Assembly: GCF_016278775.1 (NCBI RefSeq)
Contig: NZ_JADQBF010000013.1
Coordinates: forward strand, 62,001 to 126,000
Direction: 5' to 3'
Length of the DNA: 64,000 nt
From: Demequina sp.
GTDB lineage: Bacteria > Actinomycetota > Actinomycetes > Actinomycetales > Demequinaceae
The position numbers and the translations under genes were made by a program. Shown piece after piece: positions 5,158 through 46,826 of the stretch (within the stretch, counting starts at the first letter, position 1; the number at the start of each line of letters is the position of its first letter). The notes beneath the pieces were generated by a model. The model saw only the letters and a program-made list of their open reading frames with translations, did no database searches and was not told where the DNA came from.

Positions 5158-7386
5158 CTACTCGAGTGCTGACAGCGGCACTCGCACGTCGCCAGACATG
5201 TGCTTGACGCGTGCCGCGATCTCCGTGTGCCTGCCGTGAACCATGGGCCGCTGCTGGGGGTTACCCAGGTAGCCGCAGGTGCGCTTGACCACGTCACACG
5301 TGCGCGGGTCCTCGTTGCCGCACGACGGGCACGCGAAGCCGCGCGCCGTCGGATCGAAGTCGCCAGCGTAGCCGCACTCGTAGCAACGGTCGATGGGCGT
5401 GTTCGTGCCCAGGTAGCCGACGCGGTCGTACGAGTAGTCCCACACGGCCTCAAGTGCCTTGGGGTTCTGCTGCAGCACCGGGTACTCGCAGTAGTGAATG
5501 AACCCTCCGGAGGTGTACGGGGCGTACTCCGCCTCGAAGTCGAGCTTCTCGAAGGGCGTGGGGCTCTTGCGCACGTCGTAGTGGAAGCTGTTCGTGTAGT
5601 AGTCCTTGTCCGTGATGTCAGCGACCGATCCGAAGCGTTCCTTGTCGAGGCGGCAGAACCGGTCCGTGAGGCTCTCGCTCGGTGTCGAGTACACACTCAC
5701 CCGATAGCCCGAGTCCGCTGTCCACTCCTTGGCGTGAGACTGGAGTGAATCCAGCACACTCAGCGTGAGTTGCTTGGCCTCGGGGTTGCTCTCCCACTCC
5801 GGCCCGAAGAAGGCCGTCGCGACCTCGTACAGGCCGATGTAGCCGAGCGAAACCGTGGCACGCCCATCCTTGAAGAGGGTGTCGACCTTGTCCAGCGGGC
5901 CGAGCCGCTTGCCGAACGCGCCGTGCACATAGAGGATCGGCGCGTTTCCTGGCACGGCCTCCTTACACCGCTGCACGCGGAACATGATGGCATCGTGCAT
6001 CGTCGCCAGACGCTCCTCGAGCAACGCCCAGAACACGCCCACGTCTCCCTCTGACTCGAGAGCGATGCGAGGGAGGTTGAGGGTCACGACGCCAAGATTC
6101 ATTCGACCCTCGACCCTGTCGTCACCGTCCTCGTCCTCCCAACCCTGCAGGAACGAGCGGCAGCCCATCGGCGCCTTGAACGAGCCCGTGAGTTCGACGA
6201 TCTTGTCGTAGTTGAGCACGTCTGGGTACATGCGCTTGGTGGCGCACTCGACCGCGAGCTCCTTGATGTCGTAGTTCGGGTCCCCCGCCTTGCGGTTGAG
6301 GCCCTCCTTGATGGTGAACAGCAACTTGGGGAAGATCGCGGTGCGGCCCTCCTTGCCGAGCCCGCGCAAGCGGTTCTGCAGGATGGCTCGCTGAATCTCC
6401 TTCTCGTACCAACCGGTGCCCAGGCCGAATCCGAGCGACGTGAACGGCGTCTGTCCGTTTGACGTGAAGAGCGTGTTGATCTCGTATTCGAGCGACTGCA
6501 TCGCGTCGTAAATGTCCTTGCGCGTCTTCGCCTTGGCGTACTCGCGTTGGCGCTCCTCGCCTTCTATCCACTCGTGGGCGTCGGCCTCGTGCTTCGCATA
6601 GTTCATGGCCGCGTAGGGAGCGAGCAGTTCGTCGATGCGGTTGACGGTGCAGCCGCCGTACTGGCTGGAGGACACGTTCGCGATGATCTGGGAGATCTGG
6701 GCGGTCGCCGTACCAATCGACCGAGGAGTGTCCACCTGAGCGTTGCCGATCCTGAAACCCTTGGAGAGCATCGACTCGAAGTCGATGAGGCAGCAGTTGG
6801 TCATCGGCGCATAGGGGTGGTAGTCGAGGTCGTGGTAGTGGATGTCGCCCTTTTGGTGGGCGTTCGCCACGTGCGCGGGGAGCATGCGCAGGCCGATGGC
6901 CTTGCCCACCGTGCCTGCAGTCAGGTCGCGCTGGGTGTTGAACACCTCGGCATCCTTGTTGGCGTTCTCGTTGACGACGCTCGAGTCCTTGTCCAGCAAC
7001 TTGATGATCGAGTGATTGAGGTCCGTTGCCTTACTGCGCGCGAAGTCGCGCTGCACGCGGTAGTCGATGTACGCCTGGGCGACCTCGTACTCTCGGGCCT
7101 CGAGCAGCACGTGTTCCACGACCGACTGGATCTCGTAGATCTTGACCTCGCCGATGTAGCGCTCGGCGAGCTCCTGGTCGACGCGCTTCACGAGCTGAGA
7201 GATCGACCGCTTGTGCATCGCGCCTAGCTCACCGTGGACCGCCTCGAACGCCTTCGTCAGTGCGGCGCCGATGCGGCCGTCCTCAAAGCGCAGCGTGCGC
7301 CCGTCACGCTTGACCACGGACAGGGTAGGTTGCCCGCTCGCGGCAGCAGCTCGTGAGGTCGTGTTGTCCAGGTCCGTGATGCTCAT
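5158..7386 (-). CDS. nrdD: Anaerobic (class III) ribonucleoside-triphosphate reductase
   Basis: ATP-cone N-terminus (VVKRDGRTLRFEDGRI), glycyl-radical motif RTCGYLGNP, and Zn-type cysteines CYECG/CPSCG. Start set at MSITDLD, preceded by GGAGGAGAG. Confidence 0.96.
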   Translation of the reverse strand: MSITDLDNTTSRAAAASGQPTLSVVKRDGRTLRFEDGRIGAALTKAFEAVHGELGAMHKRSISQLVKRVDQELAERYIGEVKIYEIQSVVEHVLLEAREYEVAQAYIDYRVQRDFARSKATDLNHSIIKLLDKDSSVVNENANKDAEVFNTQRDLTAGTVGKAIGLRMLPAHVANAHQKGDIHYHDLDYHPYAPMTNCCLIDFESMLSKGFRIGNAQVDTPRSIGTATAQISQIIANVSSSQYGGCTVNRIDELLAPYAAMNYAKHEADAHEWIEGEERQREYAKAKTRKDIYDAMQSLEYEINTLFTSNGQTPFTSLGFGLGTGWYEKEIQRAILQNRLRGLGKEGRTAIFPKLLFTIKEGLNRKAGDPNYDIKELAVECATKRMYPDVLNYDKIVELTGSFKAPMGCRSFLQGWEDEDGDDRVEGRMNLGVVTLNLPRIALESEGDVGVFWALLEERLATMHDAIMFRVQRCKEAVPGNAPILYVHGAFGKRLGPLDKVDTLFKDGRATVSLGYIGLYEVATAFFGPEWESNPEAKQLTLSVLDSLQSHAKEWTADSGYRVSVYSTPSESLTDRFCRLDKERFGSVADITDKDYYTNSFHYDVRKSPTPFEKLDFEAEYAPYTSGGFIHYCEYPVLQQNPKALEAVWDYSYDRVGYLGTNTPIDRCYECGYAGDFDPTARGFACPSCGNEDPRTCDVVKRTCGYLGNPQQRPMVHGRHTEIAARVKHMSGDVRVPLSALE

Positions 7387-7455
7387 CGCTCTCCTCCGTC
7401 GTTCGAATCCGCCCCGGGGGTTTGCCTCCGCGTGCAGCCTGTGCGTCCGCAGAAC

Positions 7456-7469
7456 CACTACATCTAGTG
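7456..7469 (-). promoter_or_regulatory. NrdR-like box 1 (CACTA-CATC-TAGTG) upstream of nrdD
   Basis: Perfect inverted CACTA-N4-TAGTG, similar to the NrdR-box consensus, located upstream of an RNR gene. Confidence 0.8.
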
Positions 7470-7487
7470 CGGCAGGCGGAAATCACA

Positions 7488-7501
7488 CACTAGATCTGGT
7501 A
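7488..7501 (-). promoter_or_regulatory. NrdR-like box 2 (CACTA-GATC-TGGTA) upstream of nrdD
   Basis: One mismatch from perfect CACTA-N4-TAGTG. Starts exactly 32 bp (about three helical turns) from box 1. Confidence 0.78.
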
Positions 7502-7514
7502 TCTCACGGTGGCT

Positions 7515-7528
7515 GGGACCTTGGTCCC
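7515..7528. promoter_or_regulatory. Perfect 14-bp palindrome GGGACCTTGGTCCC; candidate DosR/DevR-like activator box upstream of nrdD
   Basis: Direct reading. 22 nt separate it from a minus-strand TAGTGT -10-like hexamer (7487-7492). 12 of 14 positions agree with the DosR core GGGACTWWAGTCCC. Confidence 0.5.
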
Positions 7529-8629: not shown

Positions 8630-8640
8630 TTCCCCCGACG

Positions 8641-9888
8641 CTATGCGCAATCGGTAGGGGCGTTCCGGGACGTACGGTCCCCACTCCCCCCGGAGCCATC
8701 GTCATCCAGATTGCCACCGTGCCCATGGGCGGCTGCTTGAGCACGGCCGGCTCGCTTCGCACGGTACAAGGCCCCATCCGCCAACTGGATCGCGCTCTCG
8801 AGAGTCATCCCTTCTACGAGGCTCGCCACGCCGTAGCTGACCGTGGGAAGCTCTCGATCGGGTTCTGCCGTGCTCTCGAACGCCCCGTTGATCGCAACGG
8901 TTGCCGCGAGAGCCGTGTCGACGTCGGCGTCTGCAATGAACAACACGAACTCCTCCCCCCCGAACCGCGCCGCAAGATCGTGCTCCCCCAGCGTCGAACG
9001 CAACGCCTTGGCGAAGGAGGTCAGCACCCGGTCACCATACGGATGCCCGTGCAGGTCGTTGACCGACTTGAAGTGGTCGATGTCCGCCACGATCACCGCG
9101 TGGCCTACCTTCTCTCCCCCACGCGTCTGCATCACCTCGCGAACGTGATCGATGAAGGCGGAGCGATTCATGAGCCCTGTGAGGTCGTCGGTGAGGGCCC
9201 GAATCCGCCAGCCGCGTTGCTCTTCGTAGTGGCTCAGAGCGGTGACCGTGTACGAGACAACCACCAGGAGCAGCAAGACCAAGAAGGTCGTGGTGCGCGG
9301 GCCAACCCATCTGACGTAGAACTCCGCATCGGGACCCACGGCCAGGTACGTCGCGATCCTGACCGCGTAGAACACGGCTGCCAGCGCCGATGCGATGGCC
9401 AGGGAGGCTATCGCAGTGCGTGCCTCTCCGTCGTGCCGCCGATCCACGCGCTGTGCGTTCGCCTGGTAAACAGCGAACAACTCCCTCGCCGCCAGACCGA
9501 GCATGACGCCCATGCCGACCAAGAGGGAGAGCCCTCCGGGCCACGAACCTCCTTCAGGACGCTCCCACCACGTGGCGAGGGCGGACACGCCCGCCACGCC
9601 GATGGGAAGCCACCATCGGGGTGCGAGACCCCGCAGGGAGCGTGCAGCCAGCCATGCGAGCGCTGCGCTCAGCACCGAGACGCCATTGCCCAGCGCGGCC
9701 GCCAGCGTCGATTCGGAGGCTCCGCCCAGGACATAAAGGCCCGTGCCGATGGCGGAGCCCGCGACGACGCCTGCCCACCAACACGCAAAGTGCGAACGTG
9801 TGGCTCGATAGGTCCCAAAGAACACGAGAACAAAGACGCATGCACCCACGGCGGCTTGCGCGGCCCTGAGCGTTTCGATATCCCCCAT
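8641..9888 (-). CDS. Membrane-bound GGDEF-domain diguanylate cyclase
   Basis: Several N-terminal hydrophobic helices, then DDLTGLMNRSAFIDHV, DIDHFKSVNDLHGHPYGD and RFGGEEF active-site loop. Confidence 0.93.
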   Translation of the reverse strand: MGDIETLRAAQAAVGACVFVLVFFGTYRATRSHFACWWAGVVAGSAIGTGLYVLGGASESTLAAALGNGVSVLSAALAWLAARSLRGLAPRWWLPIGVAGVSALATWWERPEGGSWPGGLSLLVGMGVMLGLAARELFAVYQANAQRVDRRHDGEARTAIASLAIASALAAVFYAVRIATYLAVGPDAEFYVRWVGPRTTTFLVLLLLVVVSYTVTALSHYEEQRGWRIRALTDDLTGLMNRSAFIDHVREVMQTRGGEKVGHAVIVADIDHFKSVNDLHGHPYGDRVLTSFAKALRSTLGEHDLAARFGGEEFVLFIADADVDTALAATVAINGAFESTAEPDRELPTVSYGVASLVEGMTLESAIQLADGALYRAKRAGRAQAAAHGHGGNLDDDGSGGSGDRTSRNAPTDCA

Positions 9889-14607: not shown

Positions 14608-14621
14608 AGGACCAAGGTCCC
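14608..14621. promoter_or_regulatory. AGGACCAAGGTCCC palindrome in the divergent pit / collagen-like intergenic region
   Basis: 13 of 14 identical to the nrdD-upstream palindrome (revcomp GGGACCTTGGTCCT). Confidence 0.4.
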
Positions 14622-17651: not shown

Positions 17652-20303
17652 CTACTTCTTCGCGTTAAGCACCGCCTTGGCCGCGGCGAAGCGCGCGATC
17701 GGGACGCGGAACGGAGAGCAAGAGACGTAGTCCAGGCCAGCACCGTGGAAGAACTCAATCGAGTCCGGGTCGCCGCCGTGCTCACCACAGACGCCCGTCT
17801 TGAGCCCCTTCTTGGCACTGCGCCCGCGCTCCACGCCGATCTCGACCAGCTTGCCAACACCGTCCACGTCGATCGACTCGAACGGGTTGCGTTCGAGCAC
17901 TCGATCCATGACGTAATGGGTGAGGAAGCCGTTTTCGGCGTCGTCACGGGAGATGCCGATGGCCATCTGCGTGAGGTCGTTGGTGCCGAAGGAGAAGAAG
18001 TCGGCGTGCTCGGCGATCTTGTCGGCAATGAGGGCGGCACGTGGGATCTCGATCATGGTCCCGATCGTGTACTCCAACTCGGCGCCAGCGGCGGCGAGCT
18101 CCTCCTTGACTGCCTTGTCGACGATGCCGCGCTGCACTTCGAGTTCCTTGCTGAGCGCCACCAACGGAATCATGATCTCGACGCCGACCGTCTCACCTTC
18201 ACGCTCCTTGACGGCGAGGGCTGCACGAATGATCGCCCGGGTCTGCATCTCAGGAATCTCTGGATACAGCATGGCCAGACGACAGCCTCTGGTGCCGAGC
18301 ATGGGGTTCTGCTCGTGCAGCCGCTTGACCTGCGAGAGGATCTCGCGGGCCTTAGCCAGCTCGGTCTCGTCGCCATGCTGCAGCTCGAGGCGTTGCACCA
18401 GTAGTGCCTGCTCCACAAGGTTCGGCAAGAACTCGTGAAGTGGTGGGTCGAGCAACCGGACGGTGACGGGCAGGCCCTTCATCGCGGTGAAGACACCCTC
18501 GAAGTCCGCCTGCTGCATGGGCAGGATCTCCTCGAGCGCGTCGGCCCTGGCGTCCGCGGATTCCGCGAGGATCATCCTCCGCACGGCCGGCAACCGGTCT
18601 TGCGCCATGAACATGTGCTCCGTCCGGCACAGGCCGATCCCCTCGGCGCCCAACTCACGTGCCTTGGTGGCGTCCTCGAAGTTGTCCGCGTTGGCGCGCA
18701 CCCCGAGGGTGCGCACCTCATCAGCCCACTTCACCACACGCTCGAAGTCCTCGTTGATTTGCGGCGGGATCAGCGCCAACGCCTCGCCGTACACCTCGCC
18801 GGCCGTTCCGTCGAGCGTGATGACGTCCCCTTCGCGCAAGACTCGCTCGCCGATGGTGAGCATCTTGCCCGCCACGTCAATCTTGATGCCGGCGGCGCCA
18901 GCGACGCAGGGTTTGCCCATGCCGCGTGCGACGACGGCCGCGTGCGACGTCATGCCGCCGTGAGCCGTCAGAATGCCCTGGGCCACGATCACGCCGTGGA
19001 TGTCGTCAGGCGTGGTCTCGTAGCGCACCAGCACCACTGCCTCGCCTTTGCCACCCCGCTCGGCAGCGGTGTCGGCGTCGAACACGATCTCGCCGACGGC
19101 TGCTCCAGGAGAGGCTGGCAGGCCCTTTGCGATGGGCTTGCGCCCGTGCGTGGGGTCGATCGCCGGGTGCAATAGTTGGTCGAGTTGAGCGGGCTCGATG
19201 CGCATCAAGGCAGTCTCTTGGTCGATGACGCCTTCGTCCACGAGGTCGGAGGCGACCTTCAACGCCGCTGCTGCGGTGCGCTTGCCGTTGCGGGTCTGCA
19301 GCAAGAAGAGCTTCCCATTCTCGATGGTGAACTCCATGTCCTGCATGTCGCGGTAGTGCTGCTCCATCTTGTGCATGGTCTCGATGAGTTGGTCGTATGC
19401 CTCCGGCAGGACGTCCTTCATCTCCTCCAGCGAGCGCGGAGTACGGATACCGGCGACCACGTCCTCGCCTTGGGCGTTGACCAGGAACTCGCCGTAAAGG
19501 GCCTTCTCACCGGTCGAGGGGTTGCGGGTGAAGCAGACACCGGTGGCGGAGGTGTCACCCCGGTTTCCGAACACCATCTGCATCACGTTCACCGCAGTGC
19601 CGAGCTCGGCAGGGATGTTGTTGGCGCGGCGGTAGACATCGGCGCGGGGGTTGCCCCACGACTTGAAGACGGCGTTCACGGCGCGGTGCAGCTGCTCGTG
19701 CGGGTCAGTAGTCCAATCACCGCCAAGGTGCTCGCTCGAGATCTCCTTGAAGGTCGCGACGAGCTCCTTGAGGTCGTCTGCGGACAAGTCGGTGTCGTTC
19801 TCTACACCACGATCGGACTTGAGACCGGAGAGGGCATCCTCATACGCGTGCCCTGGCACTCCCTCGACAACCTCTCCATACATCTGGATGAACCGGCGGT
19901 AGCAGTCCCACGCAAAGCGCTCGTTGCCTGACTCTTCTGCGACTGCAACTACCGACTCGTCGGAGATACCCAAGTTCAAGATGGTGTCCATCATGCCTGG
20001 CATGGAGTGGACTGCGCCGGAGCGAACGGAGACGAGCAGGGGGTTTTCACGCCCGCCGAGCTTCTTGCCTGTGCGCTCCTCGAGACGCTCCAGCGCCGCG
20101 TCTATCTGGTCACCGAGGCCTTCCGGCCATTCGCCTGACCGCTTCATGGTCTCGACGCACGCCGTGGTCGTCACGGTGAATGCATCAGGCACAGGGACCC
20201 CAACTCGGGCCATCTCTGCAACGCCAGCGCCCTTGCCTCCCAGCAAGTTCCGCATCGAGGCGTCGCCCTCGGAGAGATCGTAGATGTAGTGCTTCTCGGT
20301 CAT
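17652..20303 (-). CDS. ppdK: Pyruvate, phosphate dikinase
   Basis: YIYDLSEGDASMRNLLGGKGAGVAEM, catalytic GGMTSHAAVVARGMGKPCVAG, SFGTNDLTQM and TGVCGEHGGDP. Start could be 20315. Confidence 0.96.
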   Translation of the reverse strand: MTEKHYIYDLSEGDASMRNLLGGKGAGVAEMARVGVPVPDAFTVTTTACVETMKRSGEWPEGLGDQIDAALERLEERTGKKLGGRENPLLVSVRSGAVHSMPGMMDTILNLGISDESVVAVAEESGNERFAWDCYRRFIQMYGEVVEGVPGHAYEDALSGLKSDRGVENDTDLSADDLKELVATFKEISSEHLGGDWTTDPHEQLHRAVNAVFKSWGNPRADVYRRANNIPAELGTAVNVMQMVFGNRGDTSATGVCFTRNPSTGEKALYGEFLVNAQGEDVVAGIRTPRSLEEMKDVLPEAYDQLIETMHKMEQHYRDMQDMEFTIENGKLFLLQTRNGKRTAAAALKVASDLVDEGVIDQETALMRIEPAQLDQLLHPAIDPTHGRKPIAKGLPASPGAAVGEIVFDADTAAERGGKGEAVVLVRYETTPDDIHGVIVAQGILTAHGGMTSHAAVVARGMGKPCVAGAAGIKIDVAGKMLTIGERVLREGDVITLDGTAGEVYGEALALIPPQINEDFERVVKWADEVRTLGVRANADNFEDATKARELGAEGIGLCRTEHMFMAQDRLPAVRRMILAESADARADALEEILPMQQADFEGVFTAMKGLPVTVRLLDPPLHEFLPNLVEQALLVQRLELQHGDETELAKAREILSQVKRLHEQNPMLGTRGCRLAMLYPEIPEMQTRAIIRAALAVKEREGETVGVEIMIPLVALSKELEVQRGIVDKAVKEELAAAGAELEYTIGTMIEIPRAALIADKIAEHADFFSFGTNDLTQMAIGISRDDAENGFLTHYVMDRVLERNPFESIDVDGVGKLVEIGVERGRSAKKGLKTGVCGEHGGDPDSIEFFHGAGLDYVSCSPFRVPIARFAAAKAVLNAKK

Positions 20304-20336
20304 ATTCGCCTTCAATCTCGCGCAAATGCGACTACA

Positions 20337-20354
20337 CGGGACCTCGTTGTCCCG
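20337..20354. other. Hairpin CGGGAC-N6-GTCCCG in the predicted ppdK leader
   Basis: Perfect 6-bp inverted repeat cgggacctcgttgtcccg located 34 nt upstream of the ppdK ATG. Confidence 0.4.
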
Positions 20355-20392
20355 TCTGTGCCCACCCTAGCGTTGGCGAGTTGGTAACGACT

Positions 20393-20406
20393 GGGACCAG
20401 TAGCCC
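20393..20406. promoter_or_regulatory. Degenerate GGGACCAGTAGCCC box upstream of ppdK
   Basis: 10 of 14 match to the nrdD palindrome. 23 nt separate it from a minus-strand TAGGGT -10-like hexamer (20364-20369). Confidence 0.3.
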
Positions 20407-42611: not shown

Positions 42612-43400
42612 CTATCCGGTCACGTGCTCCTGGAAGCGCGCGATCTTTGCGAACTCCTCTGGGTCGAGGCTCGCACCGCCCACCAGGGCTCCGTCCACGT
42701 CCACCTCGGCCATGAGCTGGGCGATGGAACCGGACTTCACTGAACCGCCGTACAGCACCCGCACGCCATCGGCGAGCTCTGCGTCGTACAACTCGGCAAG
42801 ACGGCCGCGGATCGCTCCACAGACCTCTTGAGCGTCTGCTGGGGTGGCAACTTCGCCTGTGCCGATGGCCCACACGGGCTCGTAGGCGATGACGACGTCC
42901 TTGGCCTTGTCTGCGGGCAGGTCCTTAAGGGCCCCGTCGACCTGCGCCAGCGTGTACGACACCTGGTCGCCTGCCTTGCGGATGTCCAGACCCTCTCCCA
43001 CGCACACGATCGGGACGATGCCGTTGTCGAAGGCCGCCTTGGTCTTGGCGGCGACGACCTCATCGGTTTCTGCGTGGTACTGGCGGCGCTCGGAGTGTCC
43101 TACCGCGACAAAGTCGCAGCCGAGCTTGGCGAGCTGGCTGCCAGCCACCTCGCCCGTGTAGGCGCCTGAGACGTGCTCAGACACGTCCTGTGCGCCGTAC
43201 TTGAGTTCCAGCTTGTCGGCGTCCACGAGCGTCTGCACTGAGCGCAGAGACGTGAAGGAAGCGAGCACTGCCACCTCAACGGCGGAGAAGTCGTGCTTGG
43301 CGTCGCGCAGCAGCCACGCGAGCTTCTGCACCGTGTGCGTCGCCTCAAGGTGGTCGAGGTTCAGCTTCCAGTTGCCTGCAATGAGCGGTGTGCGTGTCAT
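42612..43400 (-). CDS. tpiA: Triosephosphate isomerase
   Basis: [27 protein letters not shown] and [15 protein letters not shown]. Confidence 0.97.
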
Positions 43401-43403
43401 GTA

Positions 43404-44597
43404 TTAGCCCTCCAGCACGGCCAGACCCGGAAGGGTCTTGCCTTCGAGAAGTTCGAGCGACGCGCCGCCACCCGTAGAAATGTGTCCAAAGCCGGCCTCG
43501 TCAAAGCCGAGGATCCGGACCGCGGCGGCGGAGTCGCCACCGCCGACAACGGAGAAGCCGTCGGAGTCGATCATGGCCTGCGCGACCGCCTTGGTGCCGC
43601 CAGCGAACGCGTCGAACTCGAACACGCCCATGGGGCCGTTCCAGACGATCGTCTTGGCGTCCACAATCTTCGAGGCGAACAGCGTGGCTGAGTCGGGGCC
43701 GATGTCGAGACCCATGCGGTCGGCAGGAATGGCGTCGGCCGCGACTACGTCGTGCTCGGCGTCGGCGGCGAAACCGGCGGCCGCGACGATGTCGGTCGGC
43801 AAGACGATCTCGACTCCGTTCTCCTTGGCGGTGGCGAGGTAACCCTTCACGGTGTCGAGCTGGTCCTCTTCGAGAAGCGAACTGCCCACCTCGTAGCCCT
43901 GAGCCTTGAGGAAGGTAAACACCATGCCGCCGCCGATCAGCAGCCGGTCCGCCTTGGTGAGCAGATTGGCGATGACGCCCAACTTGTCCGACACCTTTGA
44001 ACCGCCCAGCACCACGGCGTAGGGACGCGCGGGGTCGGTCACGGCCTTGCTGAGCGACTCGACCTCCTTCTGGACCAGCAACCCGGCGGCTGCGGGAAGC
44101 ATCTTGGCGATGTCGTACACCGAAGCCTGCTTGCGGTGCACCACGCCGAATCCATCGGAGACAAACACGTCGGCGAGCGCGGCGAGTTCCCCGGCAAGGG
44201 CCTCGCGCTCGTCGTCGACCTTCGAGGTCTCACGGGCATCGAAGCGCACGTTCTCGAGCATGGCAACCTGGCCGGGCTCAAGCGCCGCTGCAGTGGCCTT
44301 GGCTGACTCGCCCACCAGGTCGGAGGCGAGAGACACGGGCTTGCCGAGCAACTCGGACAGTCGGGCAGCGGCGGGGGCAAGGGAGTACTTGTCCTCAGGA
44401 GCCCCCTTGGGACGGCCCAGGTGCGCCGTCACGATGACAGCGGCACCCGCCGCCAACAACTTCTCGATGGTGGGGACAGAGGCGCGCACGCGGCCGTCGT
44501 CCGTGATGGTGGTGCCGTCGAGCGGCACGTTGAGGTCAGAGCGGACCAACACCTTCTTGCCGGTGAGGTCGCCCAAGCTGTCAATCGTCTTCAGCAT
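43404..44597 (-). CDS. pgk: Phosphoglycerate kinase
   Basis: [26 protein letters not shown]-like [23 protein letters not shown] and VGGGDSAAA. Confidence 0.97.
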
Positions 44598-44670: not shown

Positions 44671-45759
<1,089 letters not shown>

Positions 45760-45797
45760 CTACAGCCAGCCTACTACCAACGATGCGCCAATTGCGC

Positions 45798-45811
45798 GCG
45801 ACAAAGGTCCC
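45798..45811. promoter_or_regulatory. GCGACAAAGGTCCC (minus: GGGACCTTTGTCGC) box upstream of gap
   Basis: 12 of 14 match to the nrdD palindrome. 24 nt separate it from a minus-strand TAGGCT -10-like hexamer (45768-45773). Confidence 0.4.
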
Positions 45812-45842: not shown

Positions 45843-46826
45843 CTACTCGTAGCGCAGCAATTCTTGGTTGATTCCCGCCTCTGTGTCGGGAATGCCGAGA
45901 TCCTTTGCCTTCTTGTCCGCGGTCGCCAGTAGTCGCCGAATCCTGCCTGCTACGGCATCCTTCGTCAACGGCGGAGTCGCGAGGCGACCAAGCTCCTCGA
46001 GCGACGCGTCTCGGTGTGCCATCCGCAACGTGCCCGCCTCCCGAAGGTGCTCTGGAACCTCGTCGGCGAGAATCTCAAACGCCCTTTCGACTCGCGCCGA
46101 TGCCGCCACAGCGGCCTGGGCGGAGCGGCGCAGGTTGGCGTCGTCAAAGTTGGCGAGTCGATTCGCCGTGCCGCGCACCTCACGCCGGGTGCGCTTGTTC
46201 TCCCACTCCAACACCGAGTCATGCGCTCCGAGTCGTGCCAGCAGCCCAGAGATGGCGTCGCCATCTCGAATGACGACCCTGTCCACACCGCGCACCTCGC
46301 GAGACTTCGCAGTGATGCCAAGCCTCCTGGCTGCGCCCACGAGCGCCAGAGCCGCCTCTGGCCCTGGCGACGTCACTTCGAGGCTCGCCGACCGGCCGGG
46401 CTCCGTGAGCGATCCATGCGCAAGGAAGGCACCCCTCCACGCCGCGACCGTGTCCTCGACCGAACCGCCCACCACCTGCGGGGGAAGTCCCCGCACGGGC
46501 CGTCCCCTGTGGTCGAGGAGTCCTGTTTGGCGGGCGAGCGACTCACCCTCCTTCACTACGCGGACCACGTAGCGATTCCCCCTCTTCAGGGCGCCGCCTG
46601 ACACCACGATGATCTCTGAACCGAGGTTGTACACCTCGTGGATGAACGTCCGCAAGCGCCGCGCGGACGCGGCAGTGTCCAACTCCGCCTCGATGACAAT
46701 GCGGCCGGACACAATGTGCAGTCCGCCAGCAAATCTGAGGGTGGTGGCGATCTCCGCCTTGCGAGACGAGATCCGCTCGACGGCGACACGCGCCAGTTCG
46801 TCCTTCACCTGTGCCGTGAGCGCCAT
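45843..46826 (-). CDS. whiA: DNA-binding protein WhiA
   Basis: [37 protein letters not shown] and the C-terminal HTH region [27 protein letters not shown]. Confidence 0.96.

Follow-up and report, generated by a model that had tools for sequence, protein, structure and literature searches.

The promoter of the gap-pgk-tpi operon in Demequina sp. carries a 14-bp element that we interpret, with a probability of roughly 0.85, as the operator of a DosR-type two-component system that would activate this glycolytic operon under low oxygen. The element lies in a window of 64,000 nucleotides that also contains nrdD. The sequence-only reading of this window had proposed that gap-pgk-tpi shares a regulator with the anaerobic ribonucleotide reductase (RNR). 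This proposal is supported at the level of sequence by a conserved box, by a spacing of 22-24 nt and by genes that encode a DosR-type regulator and a DosS-type sensor. Demequina and related actinobacteria probably raise glycolysis by a hypoxia switch that is shared with anaerobic DNA-precursor synthesis and cytochrome bd.

The genes gap, pgk and tpi are consecutive and all located on the minus strand (Table 1). The order of elements at the gap promoter is GGGACCTTTGTCGC, 24 nt, TAGGCT and then the GTG start codon of gap (45675-45673), with the box located 31 nt past the stop codon of whiA. The encoded WhiA, which shares 87-88% identity with WhiA of D. oxidasica and D. lignilytica, marks the host as a Demequina species (Demequinaceae, Micrococcales). 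Read on the minus strand (45811-45798), GGGACCTTTGTCGC has two mismatches to GGGACCWWGGTCCC, which is exactly the match of 12 in 14 positions to the nrdD palindrome that was originally described. It retains 9 of the 10 half-site bases of the palindrome GGGAC-N4-GTCCC, while the nrdD box has all 10. The distance between box and TANNNT is 24 nt at gap and 22 nt at nrdD and agrees with the earlier statement that the two differ by no more than 2 nt.

Table 1. Positions of the promoter elements and genes discussed in the text (window coordinates unless a contig is named).
Feature	Position	Strand	Remarks
Candidate DosR-type operator GGGACCTTTGTCGC, gap promoter	45798..45811	-	Sequence; spacing and box kept in relatives
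-10 element TAGGCT, gap promoter	45768..45773	-	TANNNT 24 nt from box
gap, glyceraldehyde-3-phosphate dehydrogenase	44671..45675	-	Pfam Gp_dh_N and Gp_dh_C; GTG start after GAGGAGA
pgk, phosphoglycerate kinase	43404..44597	-	Pfam PGK
tpi, triosephosphate isomerase	42612..43400	-	Pfam TIM
whiA, upstream neighbour of gap	45843..46826	-	Pfam WhiA domains; 87-88% identity to WhiA of D. oxidasica / D. lignilytica
Candidate perfect DosR-type operator GGGACCAAGGTCCC, nrdD promoter	7515..7528	-	22 nt, then TAGTGT
-10 element TAGTGT of nrdD	7487..7492	-	Overlaps NrdR-like box
nrdD, anaerobic ribonucleoside-triphosphate reductase	5158..7383	-	Pfam ATP-cone, NRDD, glycyl radical
Weaker candidate operator GGGCTACTGGTCCC, PPDK-like gene	20393..20406	-	23 nt, then TAGGGT (20364-20369)
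DosR/DevR-like response regulator	C84:31635-32249		Pfam Response_reg and GerE (NarL-type)
DosS/DosT-like kinase	C91:701-2326		Pfam GAF-GAF-HisKA_3-HATPase

In the proposed mechanism low oxygen would lead to autophosphorylation of the DosS/DosT-like GAF-heme kinase and to phosphotransfer to the DosR-type response regulator, whose dimers would occupy GGGAC-N4-GTCCC, with the centre of the site about 31 nt ahead of the -10 element. The operator would overlap the -35 position of a sigma-A promoter in a class II geometry, and the bound phosphorylated regulator would recruit RNA polymerase to gap. The operon would then be activated together with nrdD, cydABDC and the genes for alanine dehydrogenase, aldolase and pyruvate phosphate dikinase (PPDK). 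In Mycobacterium tuberculosis the primary DosR site lies across the -35 position, at a distance of about 34 bp from the start site, as is typical of class II promoters (PMC5360333); a distance of 22-24 nt between box and -10 element corresponds to this geometry, from which we infer the recruitment of RNA polymerase to gap. These features suggest that the regulator binds, that low oxygen is the signal, that the effect is activation rather than repression and that the gap site is weak. One half of the gap operator regularly deviates from the palindrome; this points to a mild, graded increase over constitutive expression and not to an on/off switch.

Overlap with the -35 position would also suit a regulator that binds at gap but represses it, or one whose sole effect is on the competition with -35 recognition by RNA polymerase. 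Throughout the actinobacteria the gap promoter also has a constitutive appearance, with TAGGCT or TAGGGT occurring without the box as well. However, the same geometry is found at the nrdD and cydA promoters, where activation is expected, and at DosR-activated promoters of M. tuberculosis (PMC5360333), so that a repressing or merely competing role is rather unlikely.

The gene for the regulator expected to carry out this activation, a DosR-like protein, was found in 42 of 44 Demequina genomes. The best PDB match of the protein is DevR of M. tuberculosis (3c3w, 2e-40). It shares 40% identity with M. tuberculosis DosR and has a deletion of 11 residues in the linker, because of which its activation may differ. 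In DosR the residues Lys179, Lys182 and Asn183 contact bases (PMC4082495); the recognition helix AEKTVKN, which includes the equivalents of these residues, is present in the Demequina regulator and in all 59 homologues examined. In the regulator tree Demequina and Cellulomonadaceae form a clade with 100/100 support. The fork joining this clade to M. tuberculosis DosR is weak (75/98); the protein is therefore called DosR-type, and strict orthology is not claimed. At the regulator's own promoter a box is followed after 22 nt by TAGCCT in the five closest genomes, and a similar spacing occurs there in few of the more distant genomes. The canonical DosR-type form of the recognition helix is KTVKNY; the form KTVKNH was observed in the Demequina/Cellulomonadaceae clade and in a separate group of Nocardioidaceae (L143-L186, L302, L308, L311, L312). 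Some genomes, e.g. a Kineosporiaceae MAG, contain more than one DosR-like copy.

Several other NarL-type regulators are encoded in the genome, and half-site boxes of the GGGAC type are not unique to DosR, as would be expected if the gap element were a real, conserved operator bound by a different member of the NarL/LuxR family. The four other NarL-type regulators examined (L017-L020/L024) carry the helices TVKSHV, TVKTHV or TVETHV and not AEKTVKN, whereas the DosR-like gene has a box of its own at the same spacing and a distribution that tracks the gap box. We consider it improbable that one of these other regulators is the partner of the operator.

The DosR-type system would receive its signal from the DosS/DosT-like kinase, the gene for which is present in all 44 Demequina genomes and is a convergent neighbour of the regulator gene in 36 of the 42 genomes that have both. 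The first GAF domain of the kinase matches the heme domains of DosT and DevS (GAF-A structures 2vzw and 2w3d). In the alignment to these structures the kinase keeps the residue aligned with the heme ligand position His149, which is chain position 92 of 2w3d in a numbering taken from the construct offset. The distal Tyr171, located 22 residues after His149 in DosS, aligns with the tyrosine in the LYL of the kinase. In two genomes (G001 and G006) the kinase gene is preceded on the same strand, at a distance of about 5-6 kb, by a box located before cydA; this arrangement suggests a cydABDC-dosS operon.

By mismatch count alone the gap box is not significant. Boxes with up to two mismatches occur 49 times genome-wide as compared to 46 times in the reversed-pattern control, i.e. 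without excess, and the 64-kb window contains 15 boxes with up to three mismatches against 11.8 expected. Because mismatch counts cannot separate the gap box from the background, we turned to its spacing and conservation. Boxes with no more than one mismatch number 17 in the host genome (control 4) and 654 in 47 genomes of the family (control 190); they exceed the control in 44 of the 47 genomes (Wilcoxon P=5e-9), so that the anticipated surplus of genome-wide matches was found for these near-perfect boxes. Downstream of 83 such boxes from six genomes, both flanks of which were counted, TANNNT occurs 13, 13 and 4 times at offsets of 22, 23 and 24 nt and on average 0.45 times at the other offsets. 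The spacing predicted by the sequence-only reading was thus recovered, and the accumulation at these offsets means that the motif holds a fixed place relative to -10 elements. Two sites in the window, those of gap and nrdD, combine at least 9 of 10 half-site bases with TANNNT at 22-24 nt, as compared to 0.07 sites per Markov-shuffled window and a maximum of one (n=60); box and spacing taken together are significant in the window. A further site at window positions 14608-14621 (AGGACCAAGGTCCC), upstream of a gene for a PHO4-type phosphate transporter, has one mismatch to the palindrome. It is not claimed as an operator since no TANNNT is present at 20-26 nt.

Conservation of the box at gap, without which the original proposal would have lost its basis, extends through Demequina and to the Cellulomonadaceae tested. 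In gap promoters anchored at the -10 element a box-like element is present in all 43 Demequina genomes, located 24 nt upstream, or 22 nt upstream in six of them (L112, L117, L276, L277, L280, L281). Among 29 non-redundant Demequina promoters the GGAC and GT columns of the box are conserved and the bases T, A, G and T of the -10 element are invariant; most of the spacer and the left flank are variable, with the first spacer bases after the box (GCG) partly conserved. Boxes of the AGGAC type at 24 nt occur in L118, L119, L132 and L138. Only one good half-site is left in L114, L271 and L274, and the box of L138 is also weak. Conservation with a variable spacer in 43 Demequina genomes, together with the fixed spacing, contradicts a chance resemblance in G+C-rich DNA, which is very improbable in spite of the above counts of two-mismatch boxes (49 against 46) and of three-mismatch boxes in the window (15 against 11.8).

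Outside of Demequina the gap box was detected at 20-24 nt in 13 of 13 loci of Cellulomonas, Sanguibacter, Occultella, Cellulosimicrobium and one MAG (shuffle p 0.0025-0.04). It is borderline in Ornithinimicrobium and Isoptericola (p about 0.04), and Nocardioides and others keep a TAGGGT -10 element at gap with no significant box. None of the seven genomes in which gap adjoins whiA and a DosR-like match is absent has a gap box. Loci of the Arthrobacter type are uninformative, because gap is not located beside whiA there. As the TAGGGT/TAGGCT -10 element is shared with relatives lacking the box, the gap operator appears to have been added to an older promoter.

The best-known role of DosR is that of a mycobacterial dormancy switch. 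The DosS/DosT-DosR (DevS-DevR) dormancy regulon of M. tuberculosis resembles the system described here in the palindrome GGGAC-N4-GTCCC, in a site overlapping the -35 position, in a regulator with the AEKTVKN helix and an autoregulatory box, in its low-oxygen targets, and in a GAF-GAF-HisKA_3 kinase in which the residues aligned with heme His149 and Tyr171 are kept. It differs in that the predicted targets in Demequina include gap-pgk-tpi, class I aldolase, nrdD and cydA, in that the linker of the Demequina regulator is about 11 residues shorter, and in that the sensor gene of Demequina is convergent with the regulator gene and, in two genomes, follows a cydA box at about 5-6 kb. In Corynebacterium glutamicum glycolytic genes also respond to oxygen deprivation; this control has been described in terms of other regulators such as GlxR, named in the title of PMC7999487, and not of a DosR-type operator. 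OsdK/OsdR of Streptomyces coelicolor (PMC5069765) is likewise a non-mycobacterial DosR-type two-component system with a palindromic operator and a hypoxia/development regulon. Its operator is AGGGCCGATCGGCCCT, as compared to GGGACCWWGGTCCC in Demequina, and the words gap, glycoly and nrd are absent from the main text of that paper (PMC5069765). In literature searches restricted to open-licence papers we found no previous description of gap as a target of DosR-type regulation.

The sequence comparisons support the view that a regulon of a known kind also covers a new target in central metabolism and that its regulators include a divergent lineage. We lean slightly towards the view that a distinct DosR-type lineage in Demequinaceae and Cellulomonadaceae, with a short linker in Demequina, took over a core glycolytic promoter, and that hypoxia signalling here drives fermentative flux and not dormancy. 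In these actinobacteria, which are free-living and in part facultatively anaerobic, the central, energy-yielding part of glycolysis appears to be connected to a DosR-type switch. Fermentative growth may therefore be an older or a parallel function of the regulon. The system of Demequina and Cellulomonadaceae would also represent a non-pathogenic model of DosR promoter activation.

A regulon architecture is seen genome-wide. Genes adjoining boxes include nrdD in the window, a second NRDD gene at L014 and ATP-cone proteins at L232, L247 and L266, furthermore cydA (L230, L239), alanine dehydrogenase (L242, L269), class I aldolase (L003), an FMN oxidoreductase, a pyridine nucleotide-disulphide oxidoreductase, an ATP-grasp protein of the succinyl-CoA-synthetase type, a flavodoxin and an Fe-S protein. 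Of the two gene groups that the sequence-only reading had expected at the boxes, anaerobic genes were found (nrdD, cydA, alanine dehydrogenase); universal-stress-protein genes, the classic targets of DosR, did not occur among the box-linked genes scanned, which represent a partial gene set. Boxes at class I aldolase genes recur in relatives and lack TANNNT at 20-25 nt, and aldolase is therefore less certain as a target.

Two NrdR-like boxes, CCACTACATCTAGTG at 7455 and ACACTAGATCTGG around 7487, are located about 32 nt apart between the DosR-type box and nrdD (window 7455-7502), and the upstream one overlaps the -10 element TAGTGT. A single nrdD promoter may be the meeting point of DosR-type activation and NrdR repression. 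The motif agATCTAGTGT is recurrent at promoters of the nrdD type (L232, L247, L266). The second anaerobic RNR gene (NRDD; L014, G000:C92:1251-4264) is likewise associated with a box, GGGACATTGGTCCC, and with two NrdR-like boxes. At window positions 8638-8680, GGACCGTACGTCCC is followed after 23 nt by TAGCGT upstream of a dihydroorotate-dehydrogenase-like gene adjoining nrdD; this site overlaps the end of a GGDEF gene.

PPDK is probably a further target, as predicted from the weaker box GGGCTACTGGTCCC upstream of a PPDK-like gene (17652-20315, Pfam). The spacing of this box is kept in two close relatives, and box-like elements occur in two distant ones. At E<=1e-200 the PPDK-like gene was detected in 6 of 44 Demequina genomes. 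A Kinase-PPPase gene, of the PPDK regulatory protein type, is located upstream of the PPDK-like gene (window 17652-20406).
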